A stretch of DNA of 64,000 bases from positions 1 to 64,000 of the forward strand of contig NZ_JADEVV010000014.1 in NCBI RefSeq assembly GCF_015207985.1, in the 5' to 3' direction. The notes beneath the pieces are model-generated. The model saw only the letters and a program-made list of their open reading frames with translations, did not search any database and had not been told where the DNA came from. Positions 4,549 to 36,389 of the stretch are shown piece by piece. A program made the translations under genes and the position numbers. This stretch comes from Synechocystis salina LEGE 00031 (lineage in GTDB: Bacteria; Cyanobacteriota; Cyanobacteriia; Cyanobacteriales; Microcystaceae). The first letter of the stretch is position 1. Each line of letters starts with the position of its first letter.

Positions 4549-4692
4549 AGTGAATACCTCTTGGCGATTGCTGAAAAAAGTTTTGGTTAATTACCCTCTT
4601 TAATATTTATAACACACAATTCTGTAACATTTTATACAGAAACAAAAATTTACATCCCTTTTTTTCTGATTCTCAATTCTCCAGTTAGTCCT

Positions 4693-5613
4693 ATGCGCTA
4701 TCGCTTTTACACCCTTGACGTGTTCACCGACCAACTTTTTGGTGGCAATCCCCTGGCGGTTTTTCCCGACGCCCAGGGTTTGACCGATGGGCAAATGCAG
4801 AACATTGCCGCAGAAATCAATTATTCCGAAACCGTGTTTGTGTTGCCTCCAGAGACGGCAGTGGGGAATTTCCGCCTAAGAATTTTTACCCCCAAAACAG
4901 AATTAGATTTTGCGGGGCACCCCACCATTGGGGCCGCCTATCTGTTGGGTTTACTCCAGCCCCCCAGCCCTTTAGTCACCACTACTTGGCAGTTGGAAGA
5001 GCCAGTGGGCCTAGTGCCTGTCACTCTCCACTACGATCAAGGACAGTTGATACAAACGGAATTAACCGTGGCTCAACTTCCTCAAACCCAGGGGTCCGCC
5101 CCATCCGGCCAGGATTTGACCCTGCTTTTAGGGCTATCCATTGATCAACTACAGCAAGGGGAGTATGAAGCAAAAGCCTATTCCTGTGGGTTGCCCTTTT
5201 TATTTATTCCCTTAGTGGATGAGGAGGCGTTAAACGGAATTAGTTTTAACTTGGCGGTTTGGCAAGACCTATTGGCGGATCAATGGGCCCATTGCGTTTA
5301 TTGTCTGGCCCCAGCGGATCCTGCCCTAGGTTTATTAGATAACAAGTTGATCCATGGGCGGATGTTTGCCCCTGGTTTGGGCATTGCCGAAGATCCTGCC
5401 ACTGGCTCCGGGGTAGCGGCGTTAGGTGGTTACTTCGGAGATCGCCTGGAGGCTCCAGGGCAATATCACTGGCAGATTGAACAGGGCCAAGCCTTGGGAA
5501 GGCCCAGCCAATTACAATTAACTGTGGTGAAGGAAAATCAAGCGATTACGGCAGTGAAAGTGGCCGGGCGATCGGTTTTAGTATCAGAGGGTTTTATGAA
5601 CCTGGGAAATTAG
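4693..5613 (+). CDS. PhzF-family isomerase-like protein
   Basis: 306 residues, the usual PhzF length. PhzF-fold motifs seen: GGNPLAVF near the N-terminus, the catalytic-type glutamate in NYSETVFV (Glu46), [11 protein letters not shown] in the first lobe and [12 protein letters not shown] in the second. The fold is a duplicated diaminopimelate-epimerase-like barrel that catalyses proton shifts; in phenazine producers it isomerises trans-2,3-dihydro-3-hydroxyanthranilate. No phenazine genes are nearby, so the substrate here is unknown and the phenazine label should not be taken literally. It is followed by tRNA-Leu. Confidence 0.85.
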
Positions 5614-35480: not shown

Positions 35481-36389
35481 ATGAAATGGCATAAAGAAAG
35501 CAAAGTATTATTACAAGGAGTACATCATCCCCTCGGTTTAACCTATCTAGAGCAGATGCGGAGTTGTGGTACCAAACTGGTGGCGGGGGTGAGTCCGGGC
35601 CATGGGGGGGAACTGATTGGCGATTTGCCGGTATTTGACTTGGTAGATTTGGCCGTTAAAACCTTAGGCTCCGTGGACATTAGTTTAATTCTCAATCCCC
35701 CCTACCGAGTTTTAGATGCGGCCCTAGAGGCGATCGCCGCTGGCATTCGTCAACTGGTAATTGTGTCCGCCGGAGTCCCACCCCTGGATATGATCACCCT
35801 CCTGCGGGAAGCCCAAGCGACCCACACCCTGATCCTTGGTTCCGGCAGCCAAGGCATTATGGTGCCCCAACAGTTTTCCGTCGGTACCCTGGACCCCAGT
35901 TGTTACCTGCCTGGGCCCATCGGCATTATTAGCCACTGCGATCGCCTCACCGACGACATTGCCCAAACCTTAAGCGCAGCCGGCCTGGGGCAATCCATGG
36001 TGATTAGCCTGGGCACCGATGGCCTCAATGGTTCCAACTTTGAGCAATGGCTCCAGGTGCTGGAAGAAGACGAACAAACGGAAACTATTTTATTGCTGGG
36101 GCAACCCAACAGTAACGGGGAAATGAGGGCGGCGGATTATGTGGCCTCCGCCATTGAAAAACCAGTGGTGGCCTATCTGGCGGGGCGGGGCGCAAAAATC
36201 AAACGGCACTTTGGCGACTCCCTAACCATTGTGGCCAACCAACTGTCCCATAAACGTCCCCTCTTAACCAGCGTCGAGCAAACGGTACAAGCCTTTGAGA
36301 AAGCTAACATTCCGGTGGCGGAAGCCCCCTGGGAACTGCCCATTTTTTTACCCCTGGCCATGGAAAGTCGCCATTTGGGCGGTGATTAG
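35481..36389 (+). CDS. sucD: SucD-like protein (succinyl-CoA synthetase alpha family), divergent
   Basis: 302 residues, in family register over its length: VAGVSPGHGG near residue 35, LNPPYRVLDAALEAIAAGI, and IGIISHCDRLTDDIAQTL near 147. However, the segment that normally reads as the catalytic-His GHAGA reads KRHFGDS with Asp246 at the His position, and the usual Glu208 of the phosphohistidine pocket is Gln208. The CoA-binding Gly-rich loop (normally GFTGSQG) is GVHHPLG. The Synechocystis gene is usually annotated sucD and a SucC partner is elsewhere. Catalysis by the classic mechanism is in doubt; the alignment is by eye. Confidence 0.75.
   Translation: MKWHKESKVLLQGVHHPLGLTYLEQMRSCGTKLVAGVSPGHGGELIGDLPVFDLVDLAVKTLGSVDISLILNPPYRVLDAALEAIAAGIRQLVIVSAGVPPLDMITLLREAQATHTLILGSGSQGIMVPQQFSVGTLDPSCYLPGPIGIISHCDRLTDDIAQTLSAAGLGQSMVISLGTDGLNGSNFEQWLQVLEEDEQTETILLLGQPNSNGEMRAADYVASAIEKPVVAYLAGRGAKIKRHFGDSLTIVANQLSHKRPLLTSVEQTVQAFEKANIPVAEAPWELPIFLPLAMESRHLGGD

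Follow-up and report, generated by a model that had tools for sequence, protein, structure and literature searches.

The sucD-like gene described here raises the question of whether an alpha subunit that reads aspartate at the phosphohistidine position can still serve in a succinyl-CoA synthetase and, if it cannot, what such a gene is kept for. The gene lies in a stretch of 64,000 nucleotides from Synechocystis salina LEGE 00031, referred to below as the window. The relevant features are as follows.

35481..36389, + strand: sucD-like gene, ATG start, 302 aa, alpha subunit of a SucCD-derived pair
35517..35537, + strand: residues 13-19, GVHHPLG, at the position of the CoA loop (GFTGSQG in E. coli), from the alignments
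35601..35603, + strand: His41 at the position of E. coli Lys42, from the alignments
35937..35945, + strand: Cys153-Asp154-Arg155 replacing the Ser-Gly-Thr of the phosphate site, from the alignments
36102..36104, + strand: Gln208 at the Glu208 position, from the alignments
36201..36221, + strand: residues 241-247, KRHFGDS, the former phosphohistidine loop, from the alignments (loop pLDDT below 50)
36216-36218, + strand: Asp246 at the His246 position, from alignments to SucD structures

By homology, the protein belongs to the SucD family. Residues 4-286 align by phmmer with Thermus SucD 3ufx (E 1.4e-46, the best among solved structures) and residues 5-253 with E. coli SucD 2nu7, a C123S mutant. 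Pfam identifies CoA_binding (69.3 bits) and Succ_CoA_lig (36.6 bits), with Ligase_CoA at 23 bits, slightly below its cut-off of 24.5. The NCBIfam SucD models reach about half of their cut-offs (NF004230, 191.3 against 336 bits; TIGR01019, 186.3 against 353.2 bits), although the latter is a weak test, as no sampled genome of the class reached it, His-bearing ones included. The alpha subunit model of NDP-forming acetyl-CoA synthetase, TIGR02717, scored 47.2 bits on the window protein against a cut-off of 567.15. The predicted structure (mean pLDDT 87, 56 rows) superposes on E. coli SucD 1jkj over 278 residues with a Z-score of 37.1 and an rmsd of 2.0 Å. Judging from this model, the SucD fold is retained over nearly the whole length, and the family register given in a preliminary description of the gene is confirmed. 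The loop 241-247, which bears residue 246, has a pLDDT below 50; the structural comparison proposed in that description therefore leaves the position of the loop unfixed.

Both phmmer alignments put the GHAGA segment on GDSLT, making position 246 an Asp. Glu208, the partner of the phosphohistidine, reads Gln in the alignments with Thermus and E. coli SucD, and the CoA loop is altered. These three departures had already been pointed out, and so had their consequence, namely that with Asp at 246 the subunit should not carry phosphate there by the classic mechanism; all of this stands. Further departures are K42 to H, E97 to A, N122 to G, C123 to S and S153-G154-T155 to C-D-R (mature E. coli numbering), the Ser-Gly-Thr belonging to the phosphate site. 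A sequencing accident is unlikely, since none of the 30 aligned rows (the window's own and those of 29 other genomes) has His246. His243, put forward earlier as a shifted catalytic residue, had to be abandoned: it is a His in only 7 of the 66 rows of clade A, the large Synechocystis clade, and among the columns occupied in the window protein none reaches 30% His in these rows. Very probably, the pair to which this subunit belongs has ceased to carry out the succinyl-CoA synthetase reaction via a phosphohistidine at 246.

Whether the genome holds another SucD was also asked at the outset. None was found by PF00549, PF13607 or TIGR01019, the sole other PF13607 match having an E-value of 0.65. 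The genome yielded a single SucD and a single SucC, on separate contigs (C23 and C54 of genome G000), and this separation is unlike the arrangement in 74 of the 80 named relatives, where sucC lies at most 4 kb upstream of sucD. Besides sucC, conserved neighbours of sucD are lacking in the 80 named loci, the next cluster (ABC-transporter-like ATPases, judged by eye) being present in just 20. The neighbours of the window gene are, as we presume from their sequence, a type 2 isopentenyl-diphosphate isomerase and a sugar-phosphate nucleotidyltransferase. PADLOC gave no match to a defence family for either SucC or SucD. The qPCR primers for sll1557, as given in excerpts of PMC4295605, match the window without mismatches at 36188-36205 (+) and 36225-36244 (-), and those for sucC (sll1023) show two and one mismatches on the sucC of this genome. 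The window gene is a probable orthologue of Synechocystis PCC 6803 sll1557, and the primer matches indicate that its source is closely related to PCC 6803 but probably a different strain.

The preliminary description covered one gene; the trait spans large clades, and the ligase domain of SucC is altered too. In the genomes of the order and nearer, matches to the window SucD were found in 53 of 58 (in G007 and G045 solely via a long acyl-CoA synthetase) and to SucC in 52 of 58. When 194 genomes were drawn evenly over the phylum, 19 exceeded the SucD cut-off, all outside the class. Of 68 class genomes with an alpha-sized match in this sample, 62 were read, 16 with His246 and 46 without. All 11 matchless class genomes belong to one family (f36), and other class genomes match only the long acyl-CoA synthetase. 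The 80 named loci were taken as the top hits of an alignment headed by the window protein, which biases their split of 38 with His and 42 without.

After removal of SucD rows shorter than 270 aa, SucC rows shorter than 330 aa and identical copies, 153 distinct cyanobacterial SucD rows of the class were compared. His246 is absent in 97 of them, and Glu208 is also absent in 94 of these 97. Both residues are present in 50 rows, neither in 94, only His in 6 and only Glu in 3; Glu208 is thus kept in 50 of the 56 His-bearing rows. The rows that share the co-loss are related by descent and are not independent events, and an independent-pairs test yielded only three pairs, too few to reach significance. 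Two His-less groups are seen, clade A, with Asp at 246 in 52 and Asn in 9 of 66 rows, and the Nostocales, mostly with Gln. One row, L159, was left out of these clade counts, as its loop is possibly misaligned. The SucD copies of family f13 (L213, L214, L215 and L216) are very diverged, sit on long branches and carry odd residues in most positions of the active site. A contig titled Candidatus Gracilibacteria (L105) carries a SucD with a 52% match to that of the window and Asp246, and is perhaps a mis-binned cyanobacterial contig.

The CoA site has a wider distribution of change. All 19 rows taken from elsewhere in the phylum, outside the class, retain both Gly18 of the CoA loop (numbered with Met) and Lys42. 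Within the class, Gly18 survives in one of the 56 His-bearing rows, in none of the 30 Nostocales and in one of the 66 clade A rows, and Lys42 in two, one and four rows of these groups, respectively. Since Lys42 and the loop Gly are gone in nearly all rows of the class, His-bearing ones included, the CoA site was probably changed before His246 was lost. Thr155 is kept in 54 of the 56 His-bearing rows.

On a SucD tree and on a tree of the SucC ATP-grasp domain plus SucD, both built without the trait columns, three changes of the His state are needed, the third being the single row L159 with its doubtful alignment. A constraint placing all His-less rows in one clade was rejected (p-AU 0.003; 38 rows, L159 left out), the two-clade pattern having already been seen on the SucD tree before this test. 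On these trees, His246 was lost at least twice, in the Nostocales and in clade A. His-bearing Chroococcidiopsidaceae are sister to the Nostocales with support of 99 and 98 on the two trees, and the His-bearing row L057 is sister to clade A with support of 92 and 99. As L057 keeps His246 and has His at position 208, Glu208 seems to have been lost before His246 in its lineage. There may have been more than two losses, because the support for clade A as a single loss is moderate (80 and 90 on the two trees).

Selection was estimated from median dN/dS values (NG86, related pairs, dS 0.1-1.5, medians only). In clade A without His, the two SucD domains gave 0.109 (69 pairs) and 0.094 (77 pairs), the SucC ATP-grasp domain 0.050 (45 pairs) and the SucC C-terminal domain 0.252 (52 pairs). 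The corresponding values are 0.090, 0.083, 0.073 and 0.231 for the Nostocales and 0.097, 0.059, 0.049 and 0.201 for the His-bearing rows. Both genes are under purifying selection, which is strong except in the C-terminal domain of the beta subunit; based on these medians, SucC and SucD are maintained, this domain least. The earlier suggestion of a different or regulatory role is upheld in outline, as purifying selection persists without the catalytic residues.

The reading that we prefer is that of a retained pseudo-synthetase. The alpha and beta subunits would still form a heterodimer, the beta subunit would still bind Mg-ATP/ADP, and the SucCD complex would act as an ATP-responsive regulator or scaffold instead of a TCA enzyme, its role becoming apparent at high CO2. 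Taken as a whole, including the non-catalytic role, this reading is judged slightly more probable than its negation. Several observations count against it, among them the following: Glu197 of the beta subunit is invariant in clade A, which would also suit a surviving phosphotransfer; position 245 holds a His in five of six rows of the genus of PCC 7002, so that a shifted His is conceivable there; and succinyl-CoA is measurable in Synechocystis, so SucCD could still work. The known role of Glu197 involves the phosphohistidine. A broader and more tentative proposition, which we consider possible yet somewhat doubtful, is that the single cyanobacterial SucCD was converted at least twice from a TCA enzyme to an ATP-binding complex without phosphohistidine chemistry, and that growth at high CO2 depends on this complex, be it a sensor or an ATP-grasp enzyme with a new task.

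The partner subunit bears directly on these readings. The SucC of this genome has 401 aa and an ATP-grasp_2 domain at 126.8 bits. Ligase_CoA (PF00549) was found neither on this protein nor on a Snowella SucC (one protein each), reached 20.8 bits, below the cut-off of 24.5, on a SucC of Atlanticothrix (Nostocales; one protein) and scored 49 bits on a His-bearing Leptolyngbyaceae SucC (one protein). Clade A SucC has eroded glycine loops in its C-terminal domain, as has, in part, the SucC of His-bearing cyanobacteria. The ATP-grasp residues K46, R54, E99, E197, N199 and D213 are intact in all 51 distinct clade A SucC (L159 included) and in all 7 further SucC at loci without sucD, i.e. in 58 of 58. 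All 30 Nostocales SucC have Asn in place of the Mg ligand Asp213 (e.g. L150:2377-3609), and 6 of them have His in place of Asn199. As Asp213 is kept in clade A, the two clades differ in what they lost besides His, and ATP binding is not necessarily shared by both. The predicted structure of the Snowella orthologue fits the beta subunit of succinyl-CoA synthetase poorly as a whole (TM 0.51, rmsd 12, with poor domain placement), and its ATP-grasp part fits better.

The linker of clade A SucC (e.g. L037 and L097) carries an insert that is long and variable and contains a conserved acidic-Arg..Arg.Thr motif. The motif is present in 33 of 51 clade A SucC and in 7 of the 7 further SucC, and in 0 of 89 from other groups, counted with a pattern composed after the motif had been seen. 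From its distribution, it could be a docking motif.

The intact ATP-grasp residues also fit an enzyme with a new task, in which the ATP-grasp domain of SucC would still be catalytic and would directly phosphorylate a new acceptor; bicarbonate, a small carboxylate and Asp246 of SucD are candidates. Many ATP-grasp ligases phosphorylate their acceptors directly, without a phosphohistidine. The six residues conserved in 58 of 58 SucC, the dN/dS of 0.05 in the ATP-grasp domain and the prevalence of Asp246 in clade A are all in its favour. However, the Asn246 rows of clade A would not be expected to be phosphorylated, the Nostocales lack the Mg ligand in all 30 SucC, and the C-terminal domain of the beta subunit is loosely constrained. 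We regard such an enzyme as unlikely. Asp246 as a general phosphate acceptor, considered separately, is weakened by the Asn found in 9 of 66 rows.

Returning to the retained pseudo-synthetase, loss of the SucCD step could be tolerated, because succinate is made via 2-oxoglutarate decarboxylase and succinic semialdehyde dehydrogenase, without 2-oxoglutarate dehydrogenase. This route is described as established in excerpts of PMC5160925 and PMC7133116. SucC and SucD are placed in the Synechocystis TCA cycle because of homology, as far as the excerpts of PMC7133116 and PMC9855186 show; according to the former the complex 'probably' catalyses the step, and the scheme of the latter includes it. In the excerpt of the review PMC11546870, succinyl-CoA synthetase is stated to be absent in cyanobacteria, which conflicts with PMC7133116. 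Within the open-licence papers searched, no article centred on assaying the Synechocystis SucCD pair was found, nor was a description of His246 loss in cyanobacterial SucD, the latter being weak evidence given this scope.

According to excerpts of PMC9175036, SucC and SucD have been reported in the Synechocystis proteome, and excerpts of PMC9855186 describe the measurement of succinyl-CoA in Synechocystis extracts by a coupled assay; some source of succinyl-CoA therefore probably exists. As stated in the excerpt of the review PMC7133116, succinyl-CoA is required for methionine and lysine synthesis. Among 43 genomes, the E1 component of 2-oxoglutarate dehydrogenase was over the cut-off in none (four weak matches) and MetA was found in none, the control list for MetA having matched Synechococcus elongatus, so the demand for succinyl-CoA looks small. 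Methylmalonyl-CoA mutase was found in 2 of 43 genomes, both partial. None of the makers and users of succinyl-CoA examined separates His-bearing from His-less genomes, and no gene among them explains the loss of His. A protein of 630 aa with an acetyl-CoA hydrolase/transferase C-terminal domain was observed in the window's genome (L265:925-2817, contig C4 of G000; family match 4686-5147, minus strand). Its tail resembles a GNAT acetyltransferase by eye, and the protein was found in three of the 43 genomes, which all belong to the same genus as the window. From its domain content, it is a possible source of Synechocystis succinyl-CoA.

Deletion of sucCD in PCC 7002 lowered succinate and malate to about 60% in the light and about 40% in the dark, which the authors read as support for SucCD activity (excerpts of PMC5160925). 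As reported in the same excerpts, growth of two strains lacking sucCD was not possible under sparging with 2% CO2, and slow bubbling with 1% was used instead; the different CO2 level during growth may contribute to the lower succinate and malate. His246 is absent in 6 of 6 genomes of this genus (PCC 7002 itself not among them). Five of the six rows (L247, L248, L250, L251 and L252) have His at 245 and Asp or Asn at 246, and the sixth, PCC 7117, has Tyr at 245. Since no other lineage shares it widely, this His245 is read from the alignment as chance, though it counts against the pseudo-synthetase.

These data are what a succinyl-CoA synthetase working by an unconventional route would have to build on, through a shifted His in some lineages or through direct formation of succinyl-phosphate in the ATP-grasp domain. 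The measurable succinyl-CoA, the lower succinate of the PCC 7002 deletion (as far as the excerpts cited above report it), the retained fold and sucC-sucD pairing and the His245 of that genus agree with it. Nevertheless, clade A has no His column, the CoA loop, Lys42, Asn122, the Ser-Gly-Thr loop and the ligase domain of the beta subunit are all altered, and the 43 genomes are without a known producer of succinyl-CoA (E1 over the cut-off in 0) and without a known consumer of it (MetA in 0). Such a route is judged quite improbable. That the sucCD genes are decaying relics without function would fit the lost active-site residues and the dispensability of SucD in some lineages (family f36 and the genomes that match only the long acyl-CoA synthetase), but is highly improbable in view of a dN/dS of about 0.05-0.11 in three of the four domains, the position of sucC no more than 4 kb upstream of sucD at 74 of the 80 named loci, the detected proteins and the PCC 7002 deletion phenotype, the last two as reported in the excerpts.

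If the SucCD step cannot run in the His-less clades, metabolic models that use it need mending there. In that case, the succinate left in the quadruple mutant of PCC 7002 would not be due to SucCD, which this mutant lacks anyway according to excerpts of PMC5160925, and the failure of the sucCD deletion at high CO2 would point to an unknown function of a conserved pair. Should the broader proposition of a conversion to an ATP-binding complex needed at high CO2 be true, the 'succinyl-CoA synthetase' on cyanobacterial metabolic maps would be a regulator of carbon or energy. The independent losses in two clades, together with their His-bearing sisters, also offer a ready comparison for the passage from a central enzyme to a pseudoenzyme.

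Compared to SucD of E. coli (1jkj) and Thermus (1oi7/3ufx), the window protein shares homology over nearly the whole length and, in the model, the fold (Z about 37), whereas it is without the phosphohistidine and Glu208 and has altered CoA and phosphate loops. Its nearest His-bearing orthologues are the cyanobacterial SucCD of Leptolyngbyaceae, Microcoleus, Chroococcidiopsidaceae and others, which show the same changes of the CoA-loop Gly and Lys42. In contrast to the window gene, which keeps none of the three, these SucD keep His246 (56/56, by definition), Glu208 (50/56) and Thr155 (54/56). Citryl-CoA synthetase and ATP-citrate lyase have the common superfamily fold (Z 33.9 and about 30-32) at a lower identity to the window SucD (25% and about 20%), and both use a phosphohistidine. 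With pseudoenzymes in general, the window protein has in common that catalytic residues are lost while the fold and purifying selection are kept; here, however, the change took place, as far as the trees indicate, at least twice, and in the only SucD of the genome, not in a spare copy.
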